Of a DNA stretch of 63,058 nucleotides, positions 9,314 to 55,774 are shown piece after piece. Where the stretch lies: the IMG/VR virus record IMGVR_UViG_3300043410_000540, positions 1 through 63,058 of that record. One strand, written 5' to 3'. The translations under genes and the position numbers were made by a program. The notes below the pieces were generated by a model. That model searched no databases and was not told the DNA's origin. It was given only the letters and a program-made list of their open reading frames with translations. Each line of letters starts with the position of its first letter. The stretch's first letter is position 1. The DNA is from a virus.

Positions 9314-10387
9314 ATGGTAAAACCATTTGACGTAAGTAAGTTCCGCAAGGACATTACAAAAAGTATTGAAGGATTATCAATTGGATTTAATGACCCCACT
9401 GATTGGATTAGCACAGGAAACTATGCACTTAATTATCTCATTAGCGGTGATTTTAATAAAGGTATACCTCTTGGCAAAGTTACTGTATTCGCTGGAGAGT
9501 CTGGTTCGGGAAAGAGTTACATCTGTTCCGGGAACCTGGTTCGCCACGCTCAAGAGCAAGGTATCTTTGTTGTCCTCATTGATTCAGAGAATGCACTAGA
9601 CGAAACATGGTTGCATAACTTAGGAGTTGACACAAGTGAAGCTAAACTTCTAAAATTGAACATGGCTATGATTGATGACGTGGCTAAAACAATTAGTAAG
9701 TTCGTAGCTGATTACAAAACATTACCTACAGAAGATAGACCAAAAGTCTTGTTCGTTGTTGATTCACTTGGTATGTTGTTGACTCCAACTGACGTTAATC
9801 AGTTTGAAGCAGGTGATATGAAAGGTGACATGGGTCGTAAGCCTAAAGCACTTACAGCACTTGTTCGTAACACAGTTAACATGTTTGGTTCACTCGGCAT
9901 CGGCTTGGTAGCAACGAACCACACATACGCATCGCAAGATATGTTTGATCCAGATGATAAAATCTCTGGTGGTCAAGGTTTCATTTATGCAAGTTCTATC
10001 GTTGTTGCGATGAAGAAGTTGAAGTTGAAAGAAGACGAAGACGGTAACAAAGTTACAGACGTTCGTGGTATTCGTAGTGCTTGTAAGATTATGAAAACTC
10101 GCTATGCAAAACCATTCGAAGGTGTGCAAGTTAAGATTCCATATGACACAGGTATGAGTCCATATTCAGGTCTTGTTGATATGATTGAGAAAGATGAATT
10201 GTTGAAGAAAGAAGGCAACAGTTTAGTGTACACGGGCATTGACGGAGTTATCATTAAGAAGTTCCGCAAAGCATGGGAATCAAACACTGACGGTTGTTTG
10301 GATACAGTTATGTCAGAATATTCAACTAAGATGGCAAAGATAAGTAATGTAGATTTAACAAATGAAGAAGGAGAATCTACAGAATGA
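9314..10387 (+). CDS. uvsX: UvsX RecA-like recombinase
   Basis: 357 residues; T4 UvsX has 391. Walker A GESGSGKS lies at 61-68 and Walker B is in VLFVVDSLGML near residue 150; ATNHTY and GGQGFIYASSIVVAMKK follow the RecA-core order. The C terminus is acidic, as in T4. It forms filaments on single-stranded DNA and drives strand exchange and recombination-dependent replication, displacing gp32 with help from UvsY (encoded at 10633). AAGGAG precedes the ATG. Confidence 0.93.
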   Translation: MVKPFDVSKFRKDITKSIEGLSIGFNDPTDWISTGNYALNYLISGDFNKGIPLGKVTVFAGESGSGKSYICSGNLVRHAQEQGIFVVLIDSENALDETWLHNLGVDTSEAKLLKLNMAMIDDVAKTISKFVADYKTLPTEDRPKVLFVVDSLGMLLTPTDVNQFEAGDMKGDMGRKPKALTALVRNTVNMFGSLGIGLVATNHTYASQDMFDPDDKISGGQGFIYASSIVVAMKKLKLKEDEDGNKVTDVRGIRSACKIMKTRYAKPFEGVQVKIPYDTGMSPYSGLVDMIEKDELLKKEGNSLVYTGIDGVIIKKFRKAWESNTDGCLDTVMSEYSTKMAKISNVDLTNEEGESTE

Positions 10388-14977: not shown

Positions 14978-16021
14978 ATGAAAAAAGTGAAACCTACAAC
15001 AAAAGAACAGTTAATATACTTTTTTATAACCAACGTAAGTTTAGGAACTTACGATAAAAGATTCTTGTCTAATATAGAATCAATGAGCCTCATTGAAGGA
15101 AAACCATTGACCTCTAACCAAGTAGCATTGTTAGATAAGATAATCGCTAGGTATAGTAGACAGTTATCTAAAATGGAAATCAACGTAGATGAAATGTTGG
15201 CACTGCCATGGAACCTACAACCGATTGAAAGTCTACCACAATTCACTGAGGCTCACTTGAATCTCATGGAGGATGTATTTCTACTACATAGTCCATATAA
15301 GAAAGAATTCATCGATGAATTCAAACAAGCTGACATTGATGGTAAGTGGAACAAAGAAGACCGGTGCTGGACATTCCCTGCGTGTACTCATTCATTAAGT
15401 ATAGCTACCTTTCTGATTGAAAAACATTATAACAAAGTAAACTACTGCGACCAAACTAAAGAGTTTATAAATACAGCTAGTGAGTACAAGGATATGAAAT
15501 ATTGGAATCCTACTTACAAGTATATCAACGGTTCATTCTATGTTGTAGCAACAAATCCATATCTTGAATCTGCAATTACAGATTTAGAATTTAACTTAGA
15601 CCTTTCAGTCTTAGCTAGATTAGTAAGATATGGTGTCACTATTGATGACACAGTATTGATGAAGTTCAGTGAAACGTATTCGGTTGATGAAATAGCCTTT
15701 GCTATAGATCCTAAACCCAAAGTAGAAATAAACGATGATTCTATCATAGACAAGTTACAATCAATTAAAACAGATTGTGTTGCTTTTATGGAACTCACCG
15801 GCAGTTCTAGTAATTTTTTCAAAGGGTTGAAAGAGCAACTAAACGACACTGACATGAAGCAATTAACACTATCAACCCGAGAGCCAGTCAATGATGCTTT
15901 CGTAGATAGTGAATACCCCGTGCTACTTGTATCTGGCTTTTGGACTAAATCCATGATGGATTCTCGTCAAGCTGCCAAAGTTATACACGTAGTAAACAGT
16001 AAACCAATTTTTATTAAATGA
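14978..16021 (+). CDS. unknown protein coupled to UvsW, with a HARP-like segment
   Basis: 347 residues. Most of it is unrecognised. Residues about 105-145 (SPYKKEFIDEF, GKWNKEDRCWTFPACTHSL) read like the HARP or SMARCAL1-type motif, where PYNPELV...KWDPEKKTWxFP is typical; that motif binds structured DNA next to SNF2 helicases. Here it stands beside, and overlaps by 4 nt, the SF2 helicase UvsW. I infer a DNA-binding partner of UvsW. Translation must begin leaderless if the promoter above is correct. Confidence 0.6.
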   Translation: MKKVKPTTKEQLIYFFITNVSLGTYDKRFLSNIESMSLIEGKPLTSNQVALLDKIIARYSRQLSKMEINVDEMLALPWNLQPIESLPQFTEAHLNLMEDVFLLHSPYKKEFIDEFKQADIDGKWNKEDRCWTFPACTHSLSIATFLIEKHYNKVNYCDQTKEFINTASEYKDMKYWNPTYKYINGSFYVVATNPYLESAITDLEFNLDLSVLARLVRYGVTIDDTVLMKFSETYSVDEIAFAIDPKPKVEINDDSIIDKLQSIKTDCVAFMELTGSSSNFFKGLKEQLNDTDMKQLTLSTREPVNDAFVDSEYPVLLVSGFWTKSMMDSRQAAKVIHVVNSKPIFIK

Positions 16022-17505
16022 AACAATGCAAAATAATCGTTAAGGATGAAGTTAACGTAAAAATAGAAGGACTCGAACTAACAGAGCGCAAGGCTCTGAT
16101 GAAGAAGTTTGAGTATGAGAAGCCGGGTGCGAGGTATTTACCAAGTGTCCGGCTTGGTCGTTGGAATGGCAAGATTAGCTATTTCAGTCTAGGTGGTTCT
16201 AGTTTTGTAAACTTATTACCTGACATCCTTCCCTTCATTGACCAAGCAGGTTATGATATTGAGCTAGAAGACTTGCGTGAGTATTCTACTACGTTCAACT
16301 TCACCGAGTTCAAAGAAGATAGCTTCGCCGCGCACGTGTGGCCTGACAAGCATCCAATGGCAGGTTCTCCTGTTATGATTCGTGACTATCAGATTGAGAT
16401 TATCAACAACTTCTTAAAGAATCCGCAATCACTACAAGAAGTTGCGACTGGTGCTGGCAAAACAATTATGACTGCCGCACTGAGTTATTCAGTAGAGGGT
16501 TATGGACGTTCAATCGTTATCGTTCCTAACAAGGACTTGGTTACACAAACAGAACGTGATTACATTAACGTGGGATTAGACGTAGGTGTATACTTCGGTG
16601 ACAGAAAAGACTACGGTAAGACTCACACAATTTGTACGTGGCAAAGTCTTGGCAACATGTTAAAGAAAACTAAAGCAGATGAAGCAGAGATTACAATAGG
16701 TGAATTCATTGAAGGTGTATGCTGTGTTATCGTTGACGAAGTTCACATGGCTAAAGCTGACGTATTGAAAGAACTATTGACAGGGGTAATGTCACACATT
16801 CCAATTCGTTGGGGATTGACTGGAACTATCCCTAAGAGTGAGTTTGATTATAAAGCTATCATGGTCTCACTTGGACCTGTTATCGGTAAACTATCAGCAA
16901 AAGAATTACAAGACAAAGGCGTGTTATCAAACTGTCACGTTAACATCGTACAATTACAAGATAAAGTAGAGTTCAGTAACTACCAAACTGAATTGAAATA
17001 TCTTCTTGAAGATGACAAACGATTGACTTCTATTTGTCAGTTACTTGAGAAGATTAAAGAGACTGGCAACACATTAATTCTTGTTGATAGAGTGTCAGCA
17101 GGTAGAGCAATTCAAACAAGATTGAGTGAGGCATTCACTAAAGAAAGACTTGATTACGAAGTTAGTTTTGTGTCAGGTGAGACAGGATTAACTGAGAGGA
17201 AAGAACAGTATGATGAAGTGGCTACAGCTACTAACAAGGTTATTGTGGCGACTTATGGTGTGGCCGCTGTGGGTATTAATATTCCTAGGATTTTCAATCT
17301 GGTTCTTGTGGAACCCGGAAAGAGCTTTGTTCGAGTTATCCAATCTATTGGACGAGGTATTAGAAAGGCAGAAGATAAGGACTTTGTACAAATCTGGGAT
17401 ATTACGAGTTCCTGTAAATTCGCCAAACGACATTTGACACAACGTAAGACGTTCTACAAAGAGGCGTCGTACCCGTTTTCGATTGAAAAACTAGACTATA
17501 AGTGA
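16018..17505 (+). CDS. uvsW: UvsW DNA/RNA helicase
   Basis: 495 residues, close to T4 UvsW (503). An N-terminal domain (about 1-115) precedes SF2 motifs: I ATGAGKT at 143-149, II DEVH at 240-243, III GLTGT near 266, then LVDRVSAGRAIQ and VIQSIGRGIRKAE (motif VI) in the C-terminal RecA fold. UvsW unwinds R-loops and branched DNA, moving replication from origins to recombination intermediates. It starts inside the stop of the preceding gene (ATGA). Confidence 0.92.
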   Translation: MKQCKIIVKDEVNVKIEGLELTERKALMKKFEYEKPGARYLPSVRLGRWNGKISYFSLGGSSFVNLLPDILPFIDQAGYDIELEDLREYSTTFNFTEFKEDSFAAHVWPDKHPMAGSPVMIRDYQIEIINNFLKNPQSLQEVATGAGKTIMTAALSYSVEGYGRSIVIVPNKDLVTQTERDYINVGLDVGVYFGDRKDYGKTHTICTWQSLGNMLKKTKADEAEITIGEFIEGVCCVIVDEVHMAKADVLKELLTGVMSHIPIRWGLTGTIPKSEFDYKAIMVSLGPVIGKLSAKELQDKGVLSNCHVNIVQLQDKVEFSNYQTELKYLLEDDKRLTSICQLLEKIKETGNTLILVDRVSAGRAIQTRLSEAFTKERLDYEVSFVSGETGLTERKEQYDEVATATNKVIVATYGVAAVGINIPRIFNLVLVEPGKSFVRVIQSIGRGIRKAEDKDFVQIWDITSSCKFAKRHLTQRKTFYKEASYPFSIEKLDYK

Positions 17506-18614: not shown

Positions 18615-19290
18615 ACCAATATATGGTTGTGAATTTTGTAATCGTAAATTTGCAAGAGAACGCACATTAGTTTCCCACATCTGTGAAACAAAATCTAGAT
18701 GGCTTAGTAGAGATACCGCAGGCAATCGTTTGGGATATCAATGCTTCTTGCAATTCTATAAAAAGAATACAACAGCAAAGAAACCCAAGCCATACGAGGA
18801 GTATATTCGTAGCCCGTACTATACTGCGTTTGCTAAGTTCGGTAGTTACTGTGTTGATGTGCAAGTTATCAACGTAAGTAGATATGTTGATTGGCTATTG
18901 AAAGATAGTATCAAGCTAGATAATTGGGCAACTGACGCAAACTACACAAAGTTCTTGTGTGAGTATCTTAGAATAGAAGACCCATTTGATGCTATTTACC
19001 GAAGCGTTGAGAAGTGTGTTGAATTGGGTGAGGCCCAAAATATATTACCAAATGATGTGTTGAGATTTGGGAATGTGAACAAAATCTGTTACGCCATAAC
19101 AACGGGCAAAATCTCCCCCTGGATGTTGTATTGTAGCGACAGTGGTACCCAATTTCTAGCTAACTTAAATGAAGATCATGTTAGAATAGTCATAGATTAT
19201 ATAAATCCACAACAATGGGCATTGAAGTTTAACCGTGACGAAAATCTTAAACAACAAATCAGAGACACGCTCCAAGCCGCAGGGTACTAA
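18592..19290 (+). CDS. conserved protein with N-terminal C2H2 zinc finger
   Basis: 232 residues. CEFCNRKFARERTLVSHIC near residues 13-31 is a zinc-finger-like Cys-x2-Cys...His-x1-Cys knuckle, followed by a helical domain (LGYQCFLQFYKK; SRYVDWLLKDS; CEYLRIEDPFDAIY). From memory this architecture is conserved beside replication genes of T4-like phages. The start overlaps gp62 by 23 nt; an alternative ATG at 18574 adds six residues. Likely nucleic-acid binding. Confidence 0.65.
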   Translation: MSETEETKPIYGCEFCNRKFARERTLVSHICETKSRWLSRDTAGNRLGYQCFLQFYKKNTTAKKPKPYEEYIRSPYYTAFAKFGSYCVDVQVINVSRYVDWLLKDSIKLDNWATDANYTKFLCEYLRIEDPFDAIYRSVEKCVELGEAQNILPNDVLRFGNVNKICYAITTGKISPWMLYCSDSGTQFLANLNEDHVRIVIDYINPQQWALKFNRDENLKQQIRDTLQAAGY

Positions 19291-19474
19291 AGTAACACTT
19301 GATTGGCGGCACGGGCGTGATGGGACAGAATCATGGAATGAGATTTGTGCTTGGGTAATTGAGCAATATGGTATGCCAGGCACACTTTACACATGGCACC
19401 CAACGGAAGACTACATGCAGTTCTACTTTCATAGAGAAAAGGATGCTATTCATTTTAGTTTGAGGTGGTTATGA
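19235..19474 (+). CDS. LRW-array protein 1
   Basis: 79 residues from a GTG inside the previous gene; the exact start is uncertain because no good ribosome-binding site is visible. The core ICAWVIEQYGMPG, WHPTEDYMQFYFHREKDA and FSLRWL gives the family pattern: W, five or so residues, (F/Y)G, a W, then an acidic-aromatic F-x-L-(R/K)-W ending. First member of the array. Its last codons TTGAGGTGGTTATGA carry the next gene's AGG ribosome-binding site. Confidence 0.65.
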   Translation: MTKILNNKSETRSKPQGTKVTLDWRHGRDGTESWNEICAWVIEQYGMPGTLYTWHPTEDYMQFYFHREKDAIHFSLRWL

Positions 19475-19734
19475 AAGAACCCTATTTTGTTAGAGAAAGA
19501 TACATTGTTAATGTATGTAGAGGTCTATGGATAGAGCCTTGGCCCAAATACTTTGATAACTTTTGGAATCATTGTCTTGCTATTGGTCATGAAAATGAAT
19601 GGCAAACTATCACTGTTGCTAACCATGAACTTAAACCATTAGGTGGTAAACTGATTATAACTAAAACACAAGGGTGGTACTTACGTTGGGATGATGAAAA
19701 AACTCACGCATTTTTTATATTAAAGTGGTCATGA
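19471..19734 (+). CDS. LRW-array protein 2
   Basis: 87 residues. Contains YFDNFWNHCLAIGHENEW and ends WDDEKTHAFFILKWS. GAGGTGG in the previous gene's LRW codons lies 3-9 nt before this ATG. Aromatic-rich, lacks the (F/Y)G turn of member 1. Confidence 0.65.
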   Translation: MKEPYFVRERYIVNVCRGLWIEPWPKYFDNFWNHCLAIGHENEWQTITVANHELKPLGGKLIITKTQGWYLRWDDEKTHAFFILKWS

Positions 19735-19913
19735 ATCAACATAGTATCGCTATCGAAAGATGGACTTGGAAACATAGAAATGAAGTGAGAATGTGGCTAG
19801 TTGAGAACTTCGGTGTTCATGGTGGTCGCTGGTTTGAAGATCCTGACTACGGATTAGATAATCTAGTTATGGATGAAGATGTTTATATGATGTATAGGTT
19901 GAGGTGGGAATAA
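19731..19913 (+). CDS. LRW-array protein 3
   Basis: 60 residues, close to the minimal form of the family: NEVRMWLVENFGVHGGRWFED then DEDVYMMYRLRWE. ATGA start overlap and TAATG stop overlap. The GAGGTGGGAATAATG end supplies the next gene's ribosome-binding site. Confidence 0.65.
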   Translation: MNQHSIAIERWTWKHRNEVRMWLVENFGVHGGRWFEDPDYGLDNLVMDEDVYMMYRLRWE

Positions 19914-20086
19914 TGGATCTTACTGAAGAACAATGTGACAAAATTTTTACTCCAAGTGAGGCAGAGCAAACTTGGCTAGTGTTACAAGGTAAATGCCCGC
20001 ACAACGGCGGCTGGCGTCATGTGGGTCACGGTCATAACGATGACTGCTATGAATGTAAATTATGCAGCGAATCAAGATGGTGGTAA
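19913..20086 (+). CDS. small zinc-ribbon-like protein in the LRW array
   Basis: 57 residues. CPHNGGWRHVGHGHNDDCYECKLC offers Cys, several His and Cys-x2-Cys-x2-Cys ligands for at least one zinc. It is not an LRW paralogue, although it ends SRWW. TAATG start overlap with the previous gene. Confidence 0.6.
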   Translation: MDLTEEQCDKIFTPSEAEQTWLVLQGKCPHNGGWRHVGHGHNDDCYECKLCSESRWW

Positions 20087-20087
20087 C

Positions 20088-20333
20088 ATGAGACTGAAAG
20101 CGTTCAGAGGCAATCTGATGGCGCACAAACATCGCGGTAATCGCTGGACAGTGAGAGTTGCTGGCAAGATTGATGATGAAGTGTGGTGTTGGTTAAGTGA
20201 TAATTATGGCGAAGAAGATTTTGAAAATGGTCCCTGGGCTAGAATGTATGCTTCATGGGACTATTATAGTCACGCTACTTATGATGTAACAGACCCTAAA
20301 ATTATTACTATGTTGAAATTGAGGTTTGAATGA
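20088..20333 (+). CDS. LRW-array protein 4
   Basis: 81 residues. DDEVWCWLSDNYGEEDF matches the W...(F/Y)G core and the end is ITMLKLRFE, a conservative variant of LRW. The ATG at 20088 follows the previous stop by 1 nt; a longer in-frame opening into the zinc gene is rejected. Confidence 0.65.
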   Translation: MRLKAFRGNLMAHKHRGNRWTVRVAGKIDDEVWCWLSDNYGEEDFENGPWARMYASWDYYSHATYDVTDPKIITMLKLRFE

Positions 20334-20647
20334 TTACAAGTGTATGGTACTCTACGGACGATCATAGACCTTCTGTAGAGGGTTATTACCTAGCATACAA
20401 ATTGCCTACTTTAGGTGATGATGAAGAAGGCTACGGGGTATACTACTGGGATGAGTTTTATAGAGACTGGAGAGAATCGAGTTCCCCTCAGTCACACGGC
20501 GTTAGAGTTAGCTTATGGTCAGAATTGCCACCACACGACCCTCGTGATAATACTGTACATCCACCCTCAGTAGCAGAAATTGACGCTTGGAATAATGTGA
20601 TGAATGCCATTGACAAATTTAACATGGTGAAAGAGTTGAGTAGATAA
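20330..20647 (+). CDS. DUF551-like protein
   Basis: 105 residues. WYSTDDHRPSVEGYYLAYK, YYWDEFYRDWRESS and LWSELPPHDP follow the DUF551 pattern (W-x-S near the start, P-x2-G-x-Y/V-L, aromatic strand, W-x-x-LP-x-PP). Such proteins are frequent in phages and prophages and have no known function. Interrupts the LRW series; ATGA overlap upstream and 1-nt overlap downstream. Confidence 0.6.
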   Translation: MITSVWYSTDDHRPSVEGYYLAYKLPTLGDDEEGYGVYYWDEFYRDWRESSSPQSHGVRVSLWSELPPHDPRDNTVHPPSVAEIDAWNNVMNAIDKFNMVKELSR

Positions 20648-20991
20648 TGTTAGAAGTTGTGAACAAGATTCTCGGAATGTTTGGTAAAGACATTCAAGCG
20701 AAAGCTACCCGAAAGATAGCAAACCCCGGTGACCAATTTAGCCCATTTAAGATAGTAGATGGGTATATTGGGTTTAAACCTTTCCTAATTATTGAGAATC
20801 AAAACGAAACTATGTTATACTCACATGACTGTGTAGCAATTGATACCCGGTCAGAAGTTGAATTATGGATACTTGACCAACCAGTTCACATGTGGAAGTA
20901 TGCAGAAGAATGTGATGATTGTCACCCTGCAATGACAAGATTTTTAGTAAACAAAGAATTATTAACTTGGATGGAGTTAAAATGGAATTGA
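20647..20991 (+). CDS. LRW-array protein 5
   Basis: 114 residues. N-terminal half is unrelated to other members (LEVVNKILGMFGKDI; DGYIGFKPFLIIENQ). The C-terminal half has ELWILDQPVHMWKYAEEC and ends LLTWMELKWN, the family ending. Cys-rich ECDDCHP near residue 92 may bind metal. The ATG of the next gene lies inside its last codons. Confidence 0.6.
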   Translation: MLEVVNKILGMFGKDIQAKATRKIANPGDQFSPFKIVDGYIGFKPFLIIENQNETMLYSHDCVAIDTRSEVELWILDQPVHMWKYAEECDDCHPAMTRFLVNKELLTWMELKWN

Positions 20992-21419
20992 ATCACTTAT
21001 CAGATAATGAATTGATTGAGCATATCATTAGATATGATAATGACCCTGTGAGGGTTCGTCTTGCCACTCACATGCAACGAGTTAGTGGTGCTATCATTGA
21101 TGACTTGCTTGATGCTGGTATGGATGACACATGGTGTAATTTTGATAGTGTTGTGAATGGTGCTCAATATCACCCCGGTCGATATATTACGCACCTTGAG
21201 AATGAAGTTGAATATCTTAACGACAAATTATCCGACGCCCTCAAAGAAATCAAAGAACTTCAAGCACGAACTATCATGGACTTTATCGGTGAACTTAAAC
21301 AAGAGATTAAGACTGTAGAATGGTGCAGAGATGAGGCTTACAGAGATAGAGACAAAGCACAAGAGAATGAAAAGTTGATGAAAAGTAAACTTAGCATGTG
21401 GGCTGAGTTGAACAGATGA
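20982..21419 (+). CDS. coiled-coil protein in the LRW array
   Basis: 145 residues. HLSDNELIEHIIRYDNDPV at the start is a pattern I know from small phage proteins; residues 70-145 form a long heptad coiled coil (LENEVEYLNDKLSDALKEI). It begins 10 nt inside the preceding gene after GGAG and is not an LRW paralogue. Confidence 0.65.
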   Translation: MELNHLSDNELIEHIIRYDNDPVRVRLATHMQRVSGAIIDDLLDAGMDDTWCNFDSVVNGAQYHPGRYITHLENEVEYLNDKLSDALKEIKELQARTIMDFIGELKQEIKTVEWCRDEAYRDRDKAQENEKLMKSKLSMWAELNR

Positions 21420-21640
21420 ACGATAAAGTGAAAAGTTTTATGGAACAATGGTTCGGTGAAGAAGAACTCAATGACAAGTACTGGCCCTATCAGTTTACTA
21501 TCAATGACTGGCAACGTATTCGTGAAACTGAACGATTTTGCTATAACAGTTTTAAAAGTGGTAACTGGCGCAATCGTGGAAGATACTTTGGATTCAAACG
21601 TAAGCAAGATTACGAATGGTTCTTATTAAGGTGGCTATGA
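21416..21640 (+). CDS. LRW-array protein 6
   Basis: 74 residues: SFMEQWFGEEELN, YWPYQFTINDW, then FGFKRKQDYEWFLLRWL. The last 13 residues are close to the consensus ending of the family. Its TTAAGGTGGCTATGA end is both coding sequence and ribosome-binding site. Confidence 0.7.
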   Translation: MNDKVKSFMEQWFGEEELNDKYWPYQFTINDWQRIRETERFCYNSFKSGNWRNRGRYFGFKRKQDYEWFLLRWL

Positions 21641-21894
21641 GAGTAGAGTTTAATCAAGGCGTACCCGAAGGATGTAAGCAATGGCTTTGGGATAATGTCG
21701 GACCCGGCAATATAACATTGACTAGACCTGGTATCATTGACACAAAAGATAGTCCCGAGTATGCTTGGTTCTTTGAGCGTATTAAGAAACCAACAACCCC
21801 GGAATCGTTTTATGACGACCCATTTTATTTTGTCCCTACTATCACAGTGAAAGATGAAAAGATGGCAACAATATTTGCTTTGAGGTGGCTATGA
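21637..21894 (+). CDS. LRW-array protein 7
   Basis: 85 residues. CKQWLWDNVGPGNITL resembles the same region of member 18 (QWLAKNVGPRMHYL), and the end is VKDEKMATIFALRWL. Starts on ATGA after AAGGTGG. Confidence 0.7.
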   Translation: MRVEFNQGVPEGCKQWLWDNVGPGNITLTRPGIIDTKDSPEYAWFFERIKKPTTPESFYDDPFYFVPTITVKDEKMATIFALRWL

Positions 21895-22139
21895 TGGATT
21901 TAGAACTTGTAAAAAAGATTGTGGCTAGACAAGGGCAGAATGAGTTTCTCAAAAAACCTATCGTATTGCCACCCGAAGCAAAAGTTGTCACTGGTCAAAT
22001 GAAGGAAGATGCTTACTTACATTTCCTAGAAACTAACTGCGGGGTAGAGATACATTTGTCAGAATATCATAACGAGATAGTTGGGTACAATGTCATTGAT
22101 GAAAAGAAATTTTCTTGGTTTGTATTGAAATGGTCATGA
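21891..22139 (+). CDS. LRW-array protein 8
   Basis: 82 residues. LVKKIVARQGQNEFLKKP, HFLETNCGVEIHLSEYHNEI, then VIDEKKFSWFVLKWS. Two ATG codons (21891, 21894) are both possible starts; the first overlaps the previous stop. Followed by an 11-nt gap, the longest between members so far. Confidence 0.7.
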   Translation: MMDLELVKKIVARQGQNEFLKKPIVLPPEAKVVTGQMKEDAYLHFLETNCGVEIHLSEYHNEIVGYNVIDEKKFSWFVLKWS

Positions 22140-22150
22140 AGGGACAATAA

Positions 22151-22489
22151 ATGGCACAGCCAATCATCATGCCAATAATTAGACAGGTGACACCCACTTT
22201 ACTAGCTAATAGTATCTTAGGTGTACAACCCATGACGGGCCCGGTGGGTGAAATCTTTACTATGAAGGCTAACTACGCTCCGCTCAAATATAAATTTAGC
22301 CGTGCTAAATGGTACTATGCAGACCATCGTTATGAAGATTATGATGCTATCATAGCATGGTGTACTGAACAGTTTGGTCCGCGACCCAAACGCCCTGATG
22401 CATGGACACGATGGGTTGATGAACACATTGACCGTATTAAATTCCGTGACGAAAAAGATTATGCTTGGTTTGTGTTGAGATGGTCATGA
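22151..22489 (+). CDS. LRW-array protein 9, with a major-capsid-like N-terminal segment
   Basis: 112 residues in two parts. Residues 1-42 (IIMPIIRQVTPTLLANSI, GVQPMTGPVGEIFTMKANY) closely follow the conserved motif near the mature N terminus of T4-like gp23 capsid proteins (PMVRRAVPNLIAFDICGVQP, then MNSPTGQVFALRAVYG in T4). Residues 55-112 are an ordinary array domain (AIIAWCTEQFGPRP; RDEKDYAWFVLRWS). The gene looks like a fusion of a capsid-gene fragment to an array member. AAGGGA precedes the ATG. Function unknown. Confidence 0.7.
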   Translation: MAQPIIMPIIRQVTPTLLANSILGVQPMTGPVGEIFTMKANYAPLKYKFSRAKWYYADHRYEDYDAIIAWCTEQFGPRPKRPDAWTRWVDEHIDRIKFRDEKDYAWFVLRWS

Positions 22490-22764
22490 CAGATACAGTC
22501 AAACTAGAGTGGACAGATATTTGTCGCCACGAGCATAGGTGTGAGAGCGGGAAAATGTTCCATCACACTGTGCCCAGCTATAGTGTATACGTTCAAGCAT
22601 ACCAATGGTTGCGGGTAGAGCGTGGGTATAAGTTTATATGTGCTGCAGCCGAGATATCAGAGGAAGAATACCCGGAAAGGGGTGGTAAAATTCACACCGG
22701 CAGATTCATATTCAAGTTCTTATGTGAGCAAGAGTATATGTGGTTTAAGTTGAGGTGGAGTTAA
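22486..22764 (+). CDS. LRW-array protein 10
   Basis: 92 residues. CRHEHRCESGKMFHH near the start is rich in Cys and His; QAYQWLRVERGYKFICAA and FIFKFLCEQEYMWFKLRWS follow. ATGA start. The end GAGGTGGAGTTAATG contains two overlapping Shine-Dalgarno cores. Confidence 0.65.
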   Translation: MTDTVKLEWTDICRHEHRCESGKMFHHTVPSYSVYVQAYQWLRVERGYKFICAAAEISEEEYPERGGKIHTGRFIFKFLCEQEYMWFKLRWS

Positions 22765-23042
22765 TGGAATATTTTTACGGTGGCGGCGGCAACAATCGCC
22801 CTGTCTTTTTATACAGATTTAAAGTCAACCCTTGTACTACTGAAATGTATAAGTGGGCACAAGCATATCCTGAGAAAGGTCCCTTCAGTCGGTTTCATGT
22901 TGAATGGCGAGGGGCTTATAGCAAAATGGATAGACCCTTAGAATATGATGTAATTCAGTTTGAACATAGTGAAGCCGCTAAAGTATTCAGAATCGCATTT
23001 GCGGGTGAGTATGAAGAAACCACTTTCAAAGAATACAGATGA
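22764..23042 (+). CDS. LRW-array protein 11 (diverged ending)
   Basis: 92 residues. Begins MEYFYGGGGNNRPVFLYRF; the ending QFEHSEAAKVFRIAFAGEYE aligns with the acidic-aromatic motif but has RIAF in place of LRW and an added tail. TAATG start overlap, ATGA stop overlap. Confidence 0.6.
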   Translation: MEYFYGGGGNNRPVFLYRFKVNPCTTEMYKWAQAYPEKGPFSRFHVEWRGAYSKMDRPLEYDVIQFEHSEAAKVFRIAFAGEYEETTFKEYR

Positions 23043-23269
23043 ACAAGTACGATTACTGGAGATTGTTAAGAATTCTTAAAACAGAATATGATAAACAGTA
23101 TACTGGTTACTATGAACCGACATATACTGGTTTCACAGATTCGTTTGACAAGTACATACAAGAACAGTACGGAATAAAAATGTGGATTCATAATGACGGT
23201 AATATTGATGGTACTTTTGAAATTCTAGACGAAGGTAAGTATGCATGGTGCCTACTTAAACATAAATGA
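23039..23269 (+). CDS. LRW-array protein 12
   Basis: 76 residues. FDKYIQEQYGIKMWIHNDGN matches the (F/Y)G-W core and the end is ILDEGKYAWCLLKHK. The final tryptophan is replaced by HK, consistent with a weaker downstream ribosome-binding site. Confidence 0.65.
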   Translation: MNKYDYWRLLRILKTEYDKQYTGYYEPTYTGFTDSFDKYIQEQYGIKMWIHNDGNIDGTFEILDEGKYAWCLLKHK

Positions 23270-23706
23270 AAATACTTAGACGAATCAAAGCCTACGTTAG
23301 ACTCAAAAAGAGCAGAAATTTTCTAAAGAAACATAAGTGTTTATCTTATAAACAATACAAGCTCCAGTATGACGATGATATAATTAAGTACGCTACTTTG
23401 GTTAGCCACTTCTATCACGGTTACCCATATACATGTTACTTTGAGAAAGTACCCGACGGTGAGTTGTTGATGCCTTGGTTAGAGAAAATGGACGATTGGT
23501 GTCATACTAATTGTTCGGGTAAAGTCAGACATGATATCCATAGAGTTATTCGGGAAAAGGGCTTGATTCACAATCAATATGATGATACAATGATATGGAG
23601 TGATATAGAAGATTTTTCCATGAATGATATCGGTGGACATGACTTGTTATTCTATGCGTTTAAAAGTGAAAAGGATTATGCGTGGTTCAAACTAAGATGG
23701 CAGTAA
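23266..23706 (+). CDS. LRW-array protein 13 (largest member)
   Basis: 146 residues. A basic helix (KILRRIKAYVRLKKSRNFLKK) precedes a Tyr-rich region and the usual ending FKSEKDYAWFKLRWQ. The positive N terminus may bind RNA or DNA. The ATG of the next gene lies in the AGATGG of its LRW codons. Confidence 0.65.
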   Translation: MKILRRIKAYVRLKKSRNFLKKHKCLSYKQYKLQYDDDIIKYATLVSHFYHGYPYTCYFEKVPDGELLMPWLEKMDDWCHTNCSGKVRHDIHRVIREKGLIHNQYDDTMIWSDIEDFSMNDIGGHDLLFYAFKSEKDYAWFKLRWQ

Positions 23707-23960
23707 AAACCAAAGAAGAAGAAATGATGGATATCTTGGCTGAAGAAATTCGCAAAGAAATTGATGAGGGTATCATATCAAATATATTAGTTGAGACTGG
23801 ATGGACACCTGTACAGTTTTATTTTAAGAACGGTGAGCAAGCAGTTGATGTACAGATTTGGTTAGCCGGAACATGTACTGATGACTATCGTAGATTGGGC
23901 AGTGACTACTTGTTTAAAAGTAAGCAAGATGCTGAATGGTTTATTCTACGATGGCTATGA
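23697..23960 (+). CDS. LRW-array protein 14
   Basis: 87 residues, starting MAVKTKEEEMM 10 nt inside member 13. VQIWLAGTCTDDYRRLG and LFKSKQDAEWFILRWL follow. An acidic helix forms the first 30 residues. Confidence 0.65.
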   Translation: MAVKTKEEEMMDILAEEIRKEIDEGIISNILVETGWTPVQFYFKNGEQAVDVQIWLAGTCTDDYRRLGSDYLFKSKQDAEWFILRWL

Positions 23961-24214
23961 CATTCAAAATTGATGAGGGCAGAGTGTATGGAGCACGATA
24001 CTATACCGCAAAACCTCATTGTGATGATTGGGATGAAGCAGTCCCATGGTACATACTACAAGACTGGGTAGAAGAAATGTTCGGAGAAAGTAAGGGTTCT
24101 ATATGGTTTGATAAGGGAATACCTCAACCAGGTGAAAGATGGTATGTGAACAATGCGAAATTTTGGTTTCGCAACAAAGAAGATTTAGAATGGTTTTTAT
24201 TAAGATGGCAATGA
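23957..24214 (+). CDS. LRW-array protein 15
   Basis: 85 residues. WYILQDWVEEMFGESKGSIW is a very clear version of the W...FG...W core and WFRNKEDLEWFLLRWQ a clear ending. ATG codons at 23951 and 23957 are both possible; the second overlaps the previous stop. Confidence 0.7.
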   Translation: MTFKIDEGRVYGARYYTAKPHCDDWDEAVPWYILQDWVEEMFGESKGSIWFDKGIPQPGERWYVNNAKFWFRNKEDLEWFLLRWQ

Positions 24215-24456
24215 AAATAGAAGCAACAAAAGAGTTAGTCCAAATGATTGAACGTTCCGCACGTGAGTGGAAGAGGATCAAACCAATCCTAGAAGAAAAA
24301 CATCGTCATTATGATACCTACGCTGAAGATATGTTCGGGATCAATGTCGATTTTGGTGTGTTTGATAACAAGGTAGCTATCATTGGTGCCCAAATAATAG
24401 ATGATGAAAAGTACGTCAACTTTCTATTAAGGTACGGAGACATGCCAAATGAGTAA
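24211..24456 (+). CDS. LRW-array protein 16
   Basis: 81 residues. DTYAEDMFGINVDFGVFDNK and IIDDEKYVNFLLRYGDMPNE; the ending runs seven residues past the motif because the next start lies at 24449. ATG at 24205 is an alternative start. Confidence 0.65.
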   Translation: MKIEATKELVQMIERSAREWKRIKPILEEKHRHYDTYAEDMFGINVDFGVFDNKVAIIGAQIIDDEKYVNFLLRYGDMPNE

Positions 24457-24733
24457 TATGCACAAAGCAGTAAAAGAAATTAAAGAATTAGGCTCCTTCA
24501 GATATTGGGATGAACACTACTACGGCAGTAAACGAACTATTACTACTATTACTTGGAAAGGCAGGGGCGAAGTTGACTCTGATGAAATACAAGATTGGTG
24601 TTTAACCTCATTTGGTAAGAGCGGCTATCAAGAAGAAATCGAAGATAGTCTTTGGGTTGATAATTGTCAGTACGGTGAGCTTATGTTATGTAGACCCGAA
24701 CTACTCACAGCGTTTTTATTAAGATGGACATGA
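24449..24733 (+). CDS. LRW-array protein 17
   Basis: 94 residues. DEIQDWCLTSFGKSGYQEE gives the core; the ending CRPELLTAFLLRWT keeps LLRW but has lost the acidic pair. Overlaps member 16 by 8 nt. Confidence 0.65.
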   Translation: MSNMHKAVKEIKELGSFRYWDEHYYGSKRTITTITWKGRGEVDSDEIQDWCLTSFGKSGYQEEIEDSLWVDNCQYGELMLCRPELLTAFLLRWT

Positions 24734-24996
24734 AATTTGACATAAACAGAAGCATAGGCTGGAACATAGATAGAAGAATTGTGAAGCGTACTGACATTAT
24801 CACAGACGGCGCAGATTGCTATCCATGGACTGAAACGTTTGTCATTTGGCCCAGACGAAGTATTTCGGGTGCTCCGTTGTTCTGGACTAAAGCATACAAG
24901 CGTAGAGTTTGGGTAGTATGGGGTACGGGGTTTCATATGGAACCAGAAGTTCAATATGCTACAGCATTTGATTTGTTGACACATGGTAACGATTAA
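24730..24996 (+). CDS. LRW-array relative lacking the LRW tail
   Basis: 88 residues. The tail MEPEVQYATAFDLLTHGND aligns with the family's acidic-aromatic ending but lacks LRW. The middle is Trp- and Arg-rich (FVIWPRRSISGAPLFWTKAY). ATG at 24724 is an alternative start. The next gene begins 14 nt before its stop. Confidence 0.6.
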   Translation: MKFDINRSIGWNIDRRIVKRTDIITDGADCYPWTETFVIWPRRSISGAPLFWTKAYKRRVWVVWGTGFHMEPEVQYATAFDLLTHGND

Positions 24997-25234
24997 ACTT
25001 AAACGAGGGCTAGAGCCACAAGCAGAACAATGGCTTGCTAAGAATGTGGGGCCAAGAATGCACTACCTCCATAATTCAATCGGTGGAGAAGGCTGGATCG
25101 CTAAGAAAGGTACCGAACCATTTGAGTATACCGATCAACAAGGTAATACGAGACAAATGACTGTTATAGTATGGAACCTCACATTCCAAGAAGATAAGTA
25201 TGCTACTTGGTTTAGGATAATGTTTCCAGAATGA
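24983..25234 (+). CDS. LRW-array protein 18
   Basis: 83 residues. QAEQWLAKNVGPRMHYLHN parallels member 7; ends FQEDKYATWFRIMFPE. No ribosome-binding site is obvious, so coupling to the previous gene is likely. Confidence 0.6.
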   Translation: MVTIKLKRGLEPQAEQWLAKNVGPRMHYLHNSIGGEGWIAKKGTEPFEYTDQQGNTRQMTVIVWNLTFQEDKYATWFRIMFPE

Positions 25235-25449
25235 TAGAGGTTAAACTCATAGATTTGATGCCCAATGAGATTATGGACATCGTAAAAGAACTAAGAAAGA
25301 ACGGGTGTGTACAGGGTTTGGACTTTGATTTTGAGTATCATAAGCCCAAATATGATGACTTCGGCCATGAACCAGTGTATAATAGACATACAATATTCAA
25401 GTTTTACAAAGAAGAATTAGCGACTTGGTTCGCATTGAGGTATCAATAG
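25231..25449 (+). CDS. LRW-array protein 19
   Basis: 72 residues. IMDIVKELRKNGCVQGLDF and FKFYKEELATWFALRYQ. GAGGTATCAATAGTG at its end offers a ribosome-binding site for a GTG start in the next gene. Confidence 0.65.
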   Translation: MIEVKLIDLMPNEIMDIVKELRKNGCVQGLDFDFEYHKPKYDDFGHEPVYNRHTIFKFYKEELATWFALRYQ

Positions 25450-25733
25450 TGGCAATATCAGGTATAGGTAATAGCACAGGCACATTCATGCCCTACACAG
25501 GGACTCGTCCGCCTGAGGATCAAAGTAAATATGAAATTCATCACATGGGTAAAATCTTTCATCAGATTGATTTGAAATTTAGTAAAATTGATCCAGTAGA
25601 CTATATTAAATGGTGCCGTAGAAATCTAGGTGATCGCGGTTCTACATGGGAGTTCTGGATGGCAGGTGGAATGTTGTATATTGAAGTCTGGGGCGAGAAG
25701 GCAAAGTTTACTTATGAAATGTGGAAGAACTAA
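25449..25733 (+). CDS. array protein 20, GTG start, partial family match
   Basis: 94 residues from GTG overlapping the previous TAG by 1 nt, 9 nt after GAGG. DYIKWCRRNLGDRGSTWEFW is the core; the ending GEKAKFTYEMWKN has only the aromatic trace of the motif. The first 35 residues are Gly/Thr/Pro-rich and unmatched. Confidence 0.6.
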   Translation: MAISGIGNSTGTFMPYTGTRPPEDQSKYEIHHMGKIFHQIDLKFSKIDPVDYIKWCRRNLGDRGSTWEFWMAGGMLYIEVWGEKAKFTYEMWKN

Positions 25734-26026
25734 TGAGTGAGCTAGTAGCAATCAATGGAATTGTACAAGCACGTAGCCAATACATGGTATCCGGGGATAA
25801 CATCGTGTTTCACATCGCACCGCCGTGCGGCTCAAGAATCTGTATTCTGTCAGAAGATGGTAGGTCTGACTATGAAGGCACCGGCGACACGTATGTGTAC
25901 CCAGGGGCTTCTAATGAAAGAACAAAATACAAACAGTTTATGGAAGATGTTTATGACAAACGTTATAACCCAACAGTCAAAGACGCATTAGAGAAATTAA
26001 AAGTAGTAATGGAATTAGTACGATGA
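25733..26026 (+). CDS. small unknown protein in the array
   Basis: 97 residues. Beta-rich with GDNIVFHIAPPCGSRICIL and a C-terminal helix (VKDALEKLKVVMELV). No LRW motif. TAATG overlap upstream, ATGA overlap downstream. Confidence 0.6.
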   Translation: MSELVAINGIVQARSQYMVSGDNIVFHIAPPCGSRICILSEDGRSDYEGTGDTYVYPGASNERTKYKQFMEDVYDKRYNPTVKDALEKLKVVMELVR

Positions 26027-26223
26027 GTGCCGAGAATACATGGCGTGTAGTTGCAGGACTTAAACCCATCCAATCATTTCGTTGCCGCTTTGGTTGGCAT
26101 CGCTGGACTAGTTATGAAGTTGTAGAGCGACATGAATTCTCCATGCCATACGCCAAGTGTCATTGTGCAGACTGTGGATTACCTAGAATAGAACAACCCT
26201 ACTCAAGCAAGAAAGAAAAGTAA
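26023..26223 (+). CDS. small zinc-binding protein, paralogue of 14659
   Basis: 66 residues. FRCRFGWHRWTSY and AKCHCADCGLPR reproduce the Cys-x4-His...Cys-x-Cys-x2-Cys layout of the protein at 14659, and both open with a K-P/T-P-x2-x-F-W/R-C-R stretch. Single structural zinc expected. ATGA overlap at its start. Confidence 0.65.
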   Translation: MSAENTWRVVAGLKPIQSFRCRFGWHRWTSYEVVERHEFSMPYAKCHCADCGLPRIEQPYSSKKEK

Positions 26224-26468
26224 TGGCTAATGCTTCACGCACTTGGCAAGAAAATCTAAAACAGTGGCAAAATTCAGATTTACCGGGTCTTTCAAATAGT
26301 CTCAATGAAATTGATATGCTCGTATTAGTACATGGTAAGATGCAAGAGTTATACCCGGGCAATTATTCACTTGATTGGAAGTTTGATTCAGTAACCGGGG
26401 CTTTCAAGTTGTATCCGAAATTTAACACACCAGAAGACGAGACTTGGTTCATATTAAAATATAGTTAA
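26223..26468 (+). CDS. LRW-array protein 21 (last member)
   Basis: 81 residues. RTWQENLKQWQNSDLPG, GNYSLDWKFDSVTGAFKLYP, then FNTPEDETWFILKYS. It is the last gene of the array; a gap with a late promoter and the HNH gene follow. Confidence 0.65.
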   Translation: MANASRTWQENLKQWQNSDLPGLSNSLNEIDMLVLVHGKMQELYPGNYSLDWKFDSVTGAFKLYPKFNTPEDETWFILKYS

Positions 26469-26497
26469 GGAAACAAACGACATTATGATTGACGAAT

Positions 26498-26505
26498 GAT
26501 AAATA
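26498..26505 (+). promoter_or_regulatory. late promoter box before the HNH gene
   Basis: GATAAATA, 20 nt before the ATG at 26526, with CAGGAG between them. Late promoters in front of free-standing homing endonucleases are known from T4. Confidence 0.65.
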
Positions 26506-26525
26506 CTTTATCAGGAGTTAAAACA

Positions 26526-27143
26526 ATGGATTACAGGAAACTTTGGGAATCGCACAACGGACCTATACCAAAAGATAAAGATGGTAGAAGTTATGAAATA
26601 CATCACATTGATGGTAACCATCAAAATAATGTCATTGAAAATTTGAAATTAGTAACTATTCAAGAACACTATGATGTACATTATTCGCAAGGTGACTACG
26701 GGGCATGTCTGGCTATCATTATGAGAATGAATGTTCCGGTTGAGGTGTCAAAGAAATTACAAAGCAAACTAAGTAAAGCAGTTGCCGCAAAACGCATTGC
26801 CGAAGGCACCCATAACTTTTCATCCGAACTTAGTAAGCGAGTTCAGAAAGAAAGATTAGATAATGGAACACACAACTTTCAAGGTGAACAAGGTAGCCTT
26901 AATGCTGTACAACGCAATAATAAACTAGTAGAATTAGGAAAGCATCCGTGGGCAGGTGAGTTAGGAAAGATTCATAATAAGAAAGTAGCTACTGAAAGAA
27001 TTGCTAATGGTACGCATAACTTTCAAGGAGAGATGAACCCTAATAAAAACATGCCTAAGGTAACATGCCCACATTGTGGTAAAGTAGGTGGTCGTAATTC
27101 AATGAAACGATACCATTTTGATAATTGTAAGAATAAGGAATAA
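26526..27143 (+). CDS. HNH homing endonuclease
   Basis: 205 residues. YEIHHIDGNHQNNVIENLKL at about 23-42 is the HNH active site (His pair, Asn, His, then Asn). The middle carries repeated modules containing GTHNF (three copies near residues 95, 117 and 168) typical of DNA-binding repeats in phage endonucleases. CPHCGKVGGRNSMKRYHFDNC near the C terminus is a zinc finger. GGAG fixes the ATG at 26526; an upstream ATG at 26496 overlaps the promoter. Probably a selfish insertion between the array and dexA. Confidence 0.88.
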   Translation: MDYRKLWESHNGPIPKDKDGRSYEIHHIDGNHQNNVIENLKLVTIQEHYDVHYSQGDYGACLAIIMRMNVPVEVSKKLQSKLSKAVAAKRIAEGTHNFSSELSKRVQKERLDNGTHNFQGEQGSLNAVQRNNKLVELGKHPWAGELGKIHNKKVATERIANGTHNFQGEMNPNKNMPKVTCPHCGKVGGRNSMKRYHFDNCKNKE

Positions 27144-27145
27144 GT

Positions 27146-27706
27146 ATGGCGGCGGACATTATGATAGATATTGAGAGTTTAGACACAACACCTGATTGTG
27201 CTATTCTTACGATTGGTGCAGTAAGATTTGATCCTAAGGGTTCAGGTGTTGTTGAAAAACTTGAACTTAGACCTACATTAGAAGACCAAACAGAAAAATA
27301 TAATAGGAGAATTAGTGATGATACACTTCGTTGGTGGTCCGAGCAGTCCCCAGAAGCCCTCGAGGAAGCGATGGGCGACAGAGGCCGTGTCCCGTTTGCT
27401 GAATGCATGGAGACGCTATATAAGTTTTGTTGGAATCGCCGTGCTGTTTGGAGTAACGGTGCTCCATTCGACTTGGTCGTTATGGAGCACGCCTGGCGAC
27501 AAACAAGTGATAAACCAAATCCTATCCCTTGGCCGTTCTGGACAATGAGAGATACTAGAACTCTCTTTGAAATAGCAGGTGTTAAACTAAGTGATGGCGG
27601 CCATTCTACGAGTCACAAGGCTGTGGAAGATGCTGAACGACAAGCCATTGTCGTACAAAAAGCATATATGAAACTAATCAAAGCAGAATTGGTAGCACCA
27701 CGATGA
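27146..27706 (+). CDS. dexA: DexA-like 3'-5' exonuclease
   Basis: 186 residues; T4 DexA has 227. DEDDh exonuclease: MIDIESLDT (Asp 8, Glu 10) is ExoI, SNGAPFDLVVMEHAW near 104-118 is ExoII, and SHKAVEDAERQA near 158-169 gives the His and Asp of ExoIII. In T4 DexA degrades 3' ends of DNA; related phage enzymes trim RNA. It overlaps the endonuclease VII reading frame by 4 nt. Confidence 0.85.
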   Translation: MAADIMIDIESLDTTPDCAILTIGAVRFDPKGSGVVEKLELRPTLEDQTEKYNRRISDDTLRWWSEQSPEALEEAMGDRGRVPFAECMETLYKFCWNRRAVWSNGAPFDLVVMEHAWRQTSDKPNPIPWPFWTMRDTRTLFEIAGVKLSDGGHSTSHKAVEDAERQAIVVQKAYMKLIKAELVAPR

Positions 27707-27747
27707 GTATTTTTTCTGATCTGTTTCACACACAGGAGAACGATATC

Positions 27748-28125
27748 ATGCACACAAAGATGTGTAGCATGTGCAATCGAACTTTGCCCGCGAACGGTGC
27801 TCATTTTGCAAAAGAAGGTAGCAAGGGATATTTGCGATATGAGTGCAGGGATTGTGCTAAGAAACACAGCAAACTATTAGCAAAGATTAAAAAGTCAGCA
27901 CCTAAAGTTGCAGTTGACCACAAATGTCCTGTGTGTTTAAGAGGTGCAGCCGATCTCAAAACTTATGGAAAAAACAAAAAATCAGTTTGGGTCGCTGACC
28001 ATGACCATGCTACTGAAAAGTTTCGAGGGTGGCTGTGTCACAAGTGTAACTTAGGTCTAGGTAATTTAGGTGATGATGCAGAACGATGTATTAGAGCCGC
28101 GGAGTATTTAAAAAATGAAGTTTAA
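27748..28125 (+). CDS. 49: recombination endonuclease VII (gp49-like)
   Basis: 125 residues from this ATG, which follows CAGGAG at 27735-27740; an in-frame ATG at 27703 that overlaps the dexA stop as ATGA adds 15 residues and cannot be excluded. An N-terminal zinc ribbon (CSMCNRTL...CRDC) and CPVC precede the His-Me active site VADHDHATEKFRGWLCHKCN. The enzyme resolves Holliday junctions and cuts branched DNA before packaging. Confidence 0.85.
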   Translation: MHTKMCSMCNRTLPANGAHFAKEGSKGYLRYECRDCAKKHSKLLAKIKKSAPKVAVDHKCPVCLRGAADLKTYGKNKKSVWVADHDHATEKFRGWLCHKCNLGLGNLGDDAERCIRAAEYLKNEV

Positions 28126-55411: not shown

Positions 55412-55774
55412 ATGGCACAATCACTAGACCAACCAAGATCCAATTTAGATAGTACAGTAAGAGTATTTGATAGATTCTATGACTTTGACTTAGTTGTAGA
55501 CGCAAATCAATATGAGATTGTATATTCTTATTTTTATGACATGTCAAAGAGTAAAGTTATTGCTAGAAACTTTACAACAATTATTTTCAGAATCGCCAAC
55601 ATCACCGGTGAAAGTGCAATGCGTGTCATGGAAGACGTAAAAGGAACAACAAAGTTTGAAACCAATGCGATTCTTACATACTATTTGAATAGTATCAGAA
55701 GTAAGAGTACATTGTTCGGCATAGGCGTTATCCCATCGCCTAATCAAAGCATACAACGAAACGTGGTAATCTAA
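55412..55774 (+). CDS. conserved small virion-region protein
   Basis: 120 residues. VRVFDRFYDFDLVVDANQYE and ETNAILTYYLNSIRSKSTLFG, together with position before gp4, recall an unnamed protein of marine T4-like phages. Helical C terminus. One-nt overlap with gp4 (TAATG). Confidence 0.65.
   Translation: MAQSLDQPRSNLDSTVRVFDRFYDFDLVVDANQYEIVYSYFYDMSKSKVIARNFTTIIFRIANITGESAMRVMEDVKGTTKFETNAILTYYLNSIRSKSTLFGIGVIPSPNQSIQRNVVI

Follow-up and report, generated by a model that had tools for sequence, protein, structure and literature searches.

The stretch analysed here, called the window, is the 63,058-base virus record IMGVR_UViG_3300043410_000540 of a T4-type phage. Between positions 19235 and 26468 it carries an array of 27 small open reading frames (ORFs) of 60-146 amino acids (aa), all on the + strand. 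The ORFs overlap at 24 of their 26 junctions and 99.8% of the region is coding, in good agreement with the roughly 26 head-to-tail overlapping genes in 7.2 kb that an earlier note on this DNA had described. The genes of the array are translationally coupled and belong for the most part to one phage-specific family of mini-proteins, which have in common a domain of about 60 aa ending in Leu-Arg-Trp (LRW). The N termini of the family vary strongly, and in a minority of members part of this diversity stems from grafts derived from conserved T4-type core proteins, a feature that had been overlooked.

Pieces of core proteins on LRW proteins

Gene 22151-22489 (hereafter gene 22151) matches the Pfam capsid protein family Gp23 (PF07068) with E = 6.3e-13 and 49.3 bits, against a curated cut-off of 24.4. 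The match lies in its first 46 residues and covers 44 of the 376 profile positions (5-48). The PHROG major head profile is also matched (1.5e-12), and residues 4-42 align with residues 93-131 of T4 gp23. The resemblance to Gp23 ends there, as the remaining capsid fold is absent: the protein does not hold a full-length HK97-type fold, is 112 aa long and consists of the LRW domain from residue 47. A search with this gene returned 16 related loci, 12 of which match residues 9-112 or more, that is, have the same graft. In the related genome G006, a genuine gp23 is encoded at another site. Gene 23697-23960 (gene 23697) begins with a different part of gp23, a helix, whose match to Pfam Gp23 171-199 (1.8e-3) is below the cut-off on its own. 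The top matches of a hidden Markov model (HMM) of 37 motif-picked helix-type LRW N-terminal parts were the test set's four gp23 proteins (2e-6 to 1.1e-5), followed by the next match at 0.053. A longer strand-plus-helix piece of gp23 occurs in L155:4900 (4.7e-5) and a C-terminal piece in gp170 of phage Phosso (9e-6); a C-terminal piece in L008:7379 was seen by eye only. Among the 148 LRW proteins of at least 93 aa, 14 match Gp23 and two match DnaB_C at E ≤ 0.05; 15 more Pfam families, with one member each, look like noise. An assembly artefact was rejected, since contigs from several metagenomes share the gp23-LRW fusion and since gp23-LRW or gp23-piece ORFs are present in cultured phages.

The gp23 arm of gene 22151 is under purifying selection and is kept as protein, not as DNA. 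Across five independent pairs drawn from this gene and ten relatives, the ratio of nonsynonymous to synonymous divergence (pN/pS) is 0.29 in the gp23 piece (39 codons) and 0.32 in the LRW part (66 or more codons), with synonymous sites near saturation in several pairs. A role of the grafts at the DNA level, as homology arms or homing sites, was rejected: the DNA is not what is kept, because in the four usable cases a graft and the gp23 of the same phage share only 48-62% of their nucleotides (and 38-62% of their residues). The history of the arm is also partly separate from that of its LRW domain. Between the window and L004, synonymous divergence (pS) is 0.76 in the gp23 piece and 0.25 in the LRW part; between L006 and L077 the values are 0.37 and 0.65. 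One and the same LRW type bears the gp23 arm, an NrdA piece or nothing: L005:11612, L144 and L008:7379 are 43-44% identical to gene 22151, and L015:6051, which has no arm, is 53% identical.

The gp23 arm recurs on small non-LRW ORFs of other phages. In G012, two nearby ORFs (L033:1495-1779 and 1899-2435 (-)) have the N-terminal motif EEEADEI in common, one of them with the gp23 arm and the other with the helix. An 82-aa ORF of G013 (L036:1462-1710 (-)) has a start resembling a twin-arginine signal and ends just past the arm, and a 165-aa ORF of G014 contains a gp23 piece. The Xanthomonas phage XacN1 has a gp23 piece in ORF451 (74 aa; 2e-7) and the arm at the C terminus of ORF261 (L292:798-1583 (-); 261 aa; 4e-8). 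The N-terminal part of ORF261 is weakly terminase-ATPase-like, without a good Walker A; pairwise scores are just 42-43 and the best alignment of the window terminase lies elsewhere, so that this is a hint only. In Phosso, the region upstream of ORF 276 (L290:723-1356) encodes the arm (4.6e-10) and, after it, a short GxP stretch of collagen type; the open frame exceeds the annotated gene. G013, in which no accepted LRW member was found, also has, next to its full gp23, another gp23-like protein (L032:1159-2268; 369 aa) that matches only profile positions 131-368.

Other core proteins have contributed pieces as well. The GH19 endolysin signature is present in four LRW relatives (best 1.4e-5; PHROG endolysin 0.0028). 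The NrdA motif SNLCxE[IL] is present in three, with L144 reaching 5.9e-4 against core-family HMMs, 0.0099 by phmmer and 0.0021 against PHROG. Fourteen relatives, none of them in the window, have a P-loop piece of about 30-50 residues that resembles both TerL and DnaB-type helicases: an HMM of these N-terminal parts matches TerL at 1.8e-4 to 5.9e-4 and helicases at 5e-4 to 4e-3, with homology to the Walker A of TerL/gp41. One LRW member has a tentative match to thymidylate synthase (0.0056). An exonuclease motif was noted by eye only in L005, L008:7002 and G015, and a regular expression finds it in L144 alone.

Reversed sequences served as controls for these matches. Comparing 431 LRW N-terminal parts with 1155 core proteins by phmmer gave 16 matches below 1e-3 (one reversed) and 29 below 1e-2 (nine reversed). 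HMMs of 98 core families, namely those present in three or more of seven genomes, gave 25 matches below 1e-2, distributed among gp23 (17), endolysin (4), helicase (2), NrdA (1) and one other family taken for noise, with a single match in the reversed control; the E-values of this test are rough because the database size was set by hand. Among 11,958 small ORFs of the seven genomes, 14 of the 98 core families have partial matches (none in the reversed control), which rules out gp23 as the sole core protein with partial copies. gp23 leads with six. One of these lies where contig G015 is cut off, and each of the remaining five spans profile positions 52-102. The second family has five partial matches, four of them at one conserved domain, and several others are cut by the ends of contigs or pieces. 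The five internal gp23 pieces share one segment, though partial copies extend beyond gp23. A narrow search of the open literature found no paper on such grafts.

The LRW family and its domain

An LRW-type ending is defined here as a C-terminal L-[RK]-[WYF]-x preceded by an aromatic pair and an acidic residue. A strict scan for this motif on both strands of the window found it in 13 array ORFs and at five further sites, of which one lies out of frame within the array. Genes 19235, 21637 and 24449 have the ending with a different first residue, which brings the array total to 16. A seed HMM built from these 16 adds 24983 and, weakly, 24211, 23039, 25446 and 19904 (E 0.04-0.12). The 27 ORFs can be divided into 16 clear LRW members, five weaker ones and six that are unrelated, and the figure of about 21 paralogous mini-proteins given by the earlier note is reached only by counting the weak members. 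Leu occupies position -3 in 178 of the 180 family seeds, which were themselves chosen by this motif.

A more stringent test used models from other phages only, excluded near relatives of the query, removed the last nine residues and compared each ORF with 20 shuffles. The best shuffle was beaten by 12 of the 27 ORFs, just nine of which (19235, 19725, 20088, 22151, 23266, 23957, 24449, 24983 and 25446) reach at least 7.7 bits. Small excesses over the shuffles mean little, since 20982, counted as unrelated, is among the other three. In this test, the link of the remaining LRW members to the family depends on their last residues or on their own orthologues.

The structure of the domain was predicted with AlphaFold2. 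The model of gene 22151, from an alignment of 12 relatives, has strands (E) and helices (H) in the order E55-58 H61-75 E88-92 E95-98 H101-111, with block means of confidence mostly 86-92 and a low-confidence N-terminal part. The model of gene 23697, from 26 relatives, reads H6-33 E37-40 H46-59 E64-67 E70-73 H76-86, the means being 88-95 from residue 31 onwards. The two proteins, whose N-terminal pieces differ, are therefore predicted to contain the same strand-helix-strand-strand-helix domain. A common C-terminal fold under strongly variable N termini, as supposed earlier, is thus borne out both by these models, whose elements follow a common order, and by an HMM that links nine of the 27 ORFs clearly once the last nine residues are cut. 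The family had not been recognised from the sequence, and the domain has no fitting model in Pfam, PHROGs, NCBIfam or PADLOC; PADLOC models gave a lone weak match (DruL, 0.0071) among the 148 LRW proteins. Foldseek found no PDB relative at 0.001 or better, and the LRW profile no PDB sequence at E ≤ 1. The best PDB comparisons by VIA were YbjN (Z 4.8; 3.7 Å, 59 aligned) and the designed binder 7lmx (Z 5.5; 2.1 Å, 52 aligned), resemblances that are within the range of chance; the lack of PDB relatives does not prove the fold to be new. Small PDB domains of half ferredoxin-like type, among them YbjN, procarboxypeptidase prodomain designs, KH and pterin dehydratase, have a general order of strands and helices like that of the LRW domain. 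In a viral structure library, searched with the first model only, uncharacterised proteins from uncultured Caudovirales phages fill 20 of the 21 highest ranks (best E 1.5e-3).

The codons of the motif point to a second use of it, which had also been overlooked. The final Arg codon of LRW genes is AGG in 284 of 389 cases, compared with 155 of the 1942 other Arg codons in the same genes, and the preceding Leu is TTG in 268 of 470 (background 20%). The resulting TTG AGG TGG NNA TGA combines a Shine-Dalgarno core with an ATGA stop-start overlap, and by the criterion used 419 of 476 LRW genes have an overlapping downstream start. The L-R-W codons thus double as the ribosome-binding site of the next gene; serving both as protein end and as ribosome-binding site accounts for the position of the motif at the very end of the protein. 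The Shine-Dalgarno sequence alone is insufficient as the cause of the motif: 10 of the 13 Arg-ending members without a detected downstream start still use AGG, and the residues upstream of LRW are conserved too. In the window itself, a narrow pattern finds a Shine-Dalgarno-like core at most 15 nucleotides from the start in just 8 of 27 cases. The LRW codons were rejected as recombination sites, the codon skew being limited to the Shine-Dalgarno-like part (Phe at -5 is TTT in 341 of 429, against a background of 70%). The T4 late promoter TATAAATA is not enriched (3 found, 5.3 expected).

The family is widespread in phages. One back-translated motif, used to scan viral contigs, gave at least 120 stretches. 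These, the 16 loci related to gene 22151 and the genomes analysed yielded at least 580 non-redundant LRW proteins from 102 sequence sources, several of which belong to one contig; nearly all are environmental phage contigs. Some 43 members, grouped in three clusters, were counted in contig G006 (364 kb), 41 in G015, 16 in G001, 15 in G016 and 8 in G019. A profile search of ten named phage records matched the cultured jumbo phages Phosso (31), Atu_ph07 (4) and PA5oct (3), a second scan of Phosso yielding 36 LRW ORFs, and gave no match in T4, XacN1, XbC2, XaC1, 121Q, HTVC008M or LR756511. Unlike the profile, tblastn of single members found nothing convincing in the named phages. Bacterial and archaeal genomes had no match to one exact DNA pattern, which divergent copies would escape. 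The word 'paralog' is absent from the available parts of the accounts of the relatives Atu_ph07 (PMC6102473) and AP-J-162 (PMC11242549). When the 27 window ORFs were compared by blastp (E 1e-5) with LRW proteins from other contigs, 18 had relatives there, 1 to 69 each. The family is therefore old, and the local amplification proposed by the earlier note is not supported as a recent event.

Possible functions of the grafts

The anatomy of the array and of its grafts is solid; their function we infer. T4-like and jumbo phages have clusters of small accessory (host-takeover) genes, which are short and overlapping and whose function is not known. The array likewise consists of short overlapping genes, yet these are mostly one paralogous family with core-protein grafts. 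A common scaffold with core-protein grafts that are kept as protein is consistent with proteins that meet the partners of the parent protein. We tentatively prefer the possibility that the LRW proteins act in counter-defence or host takeover, the graft-bearing ones being decoys or competitors at the binding surfaces for phage core proteins. In that case, they would be accessory proteins with a diversifying binding domain and the grafts would serve as bait: a graft would present the surface that a host protein usually meets on the intact core protein, and this host protein would be occupied or misled. The clearest candidate is the gp23 arm, in the region of the T4 Gol peptide, which binds EF-Tu and triggers the Lit protease. 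Proteins of the gene 22151 type might bind EF-Tu or another capsid sensor early, so that it could no longer raise the alarm once gp23 is produced. We take Gol to be residues 93-122 of T4 gp23.

The decoy reading is favoured because, in the available parts of the sources, Gol is a 29-residue region that binds domains II and III of EF-Tu, triggers Lit and has the highest conservation within gp23 (PMC3014915), and because bacterial immune systems are described as sensing the capsid protein, terminase and portal (PMC9712102, PMC12931631). The putative likeness to the Gol/Lit/EF-Tu exclusion of T4 lies in the arm of gene 22151, which aligns with the part of gp23 in which Gol is placed (PMC3014915); the difference is that the region stands here on a separate small gene with another domain. 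It is unlikely that the idea holds in its widest form, in which T4-type jumbo phages would maintain a mini-protein library whose common, diversifying scaffold displays the core-protein pieces used for infection recognition, as poly-epitope decoys that jam innate sensing, first with the capsid arm at EF-Tu/Gol. Several observations speak against decoys. Only 14 of the 148 longer LRW proteins match Gp23 and most N termini are unexplained, and a portal graft was not found among the 98 core families. The arm is decayed in G015 and L014 and missing from L015:6051, which has the same LRW type, and is therefore dispensable somewhere. We know of no case in which NrdA, endolysin or helicase triggers host immunity. 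Lastly, no part of gp23 is more conserved than the arm, which is therefore also the easiest to recognise.

Several other scenarios may explain the grafts. One, which we regard as rather doubtful, is a gene nursery, in which a recombination-prone region captures pieces of phage genes upstream of a ready-made, coupled LRW domain, the grafts having no common function. Diverged phages would cross over in conserved stretches, and only conserved pieces would stay recognisable. Such an origin would agree with mosaics such as P-loop, NrdA and LRW parts in one protein (L005:11612, L144:3197), with joins at short common motifs (the endolysin signature TGR running into GRxxGKS), with histories that differ between the graft and the domain of one gene (the comparison with L004), with the HNH endonuclease that directly follows the array and with the partial copies of 14 of the 98 core families in small ORFs. 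Nevertheless, purifying selection on the gp23 arm, the recurrence of an arm piece with similar borders on unrelated carriers and the small number of sources, gp23 foremost, despite many equally conserved genes on offer, all speak against it.

Alternatively, the LRW proteins could regulate the phage's own machinery, the graft docking the LRW domain to the complex that the parent protein of the graft belongs to, for example the gp23 arm or helix onto the growing capsid, where the protein would be an assembly factor, a decoration or cargo. N-arm and helix make contacts in HK97-type shells, and three gp23 regions are in use (arm, helix and C-terminal piece). Yet the endolysin, NrdA and helicase grafts misfit a single assembly role, and gp209 and gp210 of PA5oct have no mass-spectrometry note whereas their neighbours have one. 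We hold this scenario to be quite unlikely. It is very improbable that the grafts are weapons against co-infecting T4-type phages, acting as dominant-negative fragments of a rival's core proteins. In favour of this, the grafts are like gp23 at large and not specifically like that of their own phage: for those of G006 and Phosso, the best-scoring gp23 of 12 is not clearly their own. The XacN1 helix piece, on the other hand, scores highest with its own gp23, and pieces of 20-40 residues from P-loop or NrdA motifs are unlikely enzyme poisons. If the grafts are bait, the arrays would list, by the phages' own hand, which parts of core proteins hosts read, and the phage surfaces seen by bacterial sensors and EF-Tu would become testable, with Phosso in Sinorhizobium as a cultured system. 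Even if the grafts are by-products, the arrays represent an unusual gene birth in action, in which one family repeatedly acquires conserved capsid, packaging, replication and lysis pieces and maintains the gp23 piece under purifying selection.

Members of the array and genomic setting

The array genes and the other genes considered in the window are collected in Table 1.

Table 1 Array ORFs and other genes of the window, with the evidence for each
Position	Strand	Feature	Evidence
3326-4873		terminase	PF03237, 6e-16
9314-10387		RecA-like	
16018-17505		UvsW-like helicase	
19235-19474	+	LRW mini-protein, 79 aa, end HFSLRWL	seed; without last 9 residues 15.8 bits vs 12.1 best shuffle
19465-19734	+	LRW mini-protein, 87-89 aa (ATG 19471), end FFILKWS	motif; unconnected without its end
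19725-19913	+	LRW mini-protein, 60-62 aa (ATG 19731)	motif; 16.1 bits (stringent test)
19904-20086	+	60-aa ORF, doubtful member	seed HMM E 0.12
20088-20333	+	LRW mini-protein, 81 aa, end LKLRFE	motif; 7.7 bits (stringent test)
20647-20991	+	LRW mini-protein, 114 aa	motif; relative of same type, L038:13507-13854, bears gp23 arm (matches gp23)
21416-21640	+	LRW mini-protein, 74 aa	motif
21637-21894	+	LRW mini-protein, 85 aa	seed member
21891-22139	+	LRW mini-protein, 82-83 aa, end WFVLKWS	motif
22151-22489	+	chimera: gp23 N-arm/E-loop piece (residues 4-42) and LRW domain (residues 47-112)	Pfam, PHROG, T4 alignment, relatives, pN/pS, AlphaFold2
22486-22764	+	LRW mini-protein, 92 aa	motif
23039-23269	+	76-aa ORF, end WCLLKHK, weak member	seed HMM E 0.09; 20 relatives among LRW proteins elsewhere
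23266-23706	+	LRW mini-protein, 146 aa, long N part	motif; 7.8 bits (stringent test)
23697-23960	+	chimera: N-terminal gp23 helix piece (EIRKEIDEGII...) and LRW domain	Pfam Gp23, N-part HMM, AlphaFold2
23957-24214	+	LRW mini-protein, 85 aa	motif; 14.0 bits (stringent test)
24211-24456	+	81-aa ORF, end FLLRYGDMPNE, weak member	seed HMM E 0.04
24449-24733	+	LRW mini-protein, 94 aa	seed member; 16.7 bits (stringent test)
24983-25234	+	83-aa member, degenerate end WFRIMFPE	seed HMM E 0.0025; 7.7 bits (stringent test)
25231-25449	+	LRW mini-protein, 72 aa, end FALRYQ	motif; 34 relatives
25449-25733	+	about 94-aa ORF, GTG start, weak member (alias 25446)	seed HMM E 0.12; 9.0 bits (stringent test)
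26223-26468	+	LRW mini-protein, 81 aa, end FILKYS, final array gene	motif; unconnected without its end
20330-20647, 20982-21419, 22755-23042, 24730-24996, 25733-26026, 26023-26223	+	non-member ORFs inside array	seed HMM E 0.3 to 5
26496-27143		HNH_3 endonuclease	
27703-28125		endonuclease VII	

The two endonuclease genes come straight after the array; the available part of PMC13096335 reports the amplification of anti-defence genes by a homing endonuclease. Within the array, the non-LRW ORF 20982-21419 (145 aa) has a 52% identical relative in G006 (55700-56134), which likewise lies inside an LRW array.

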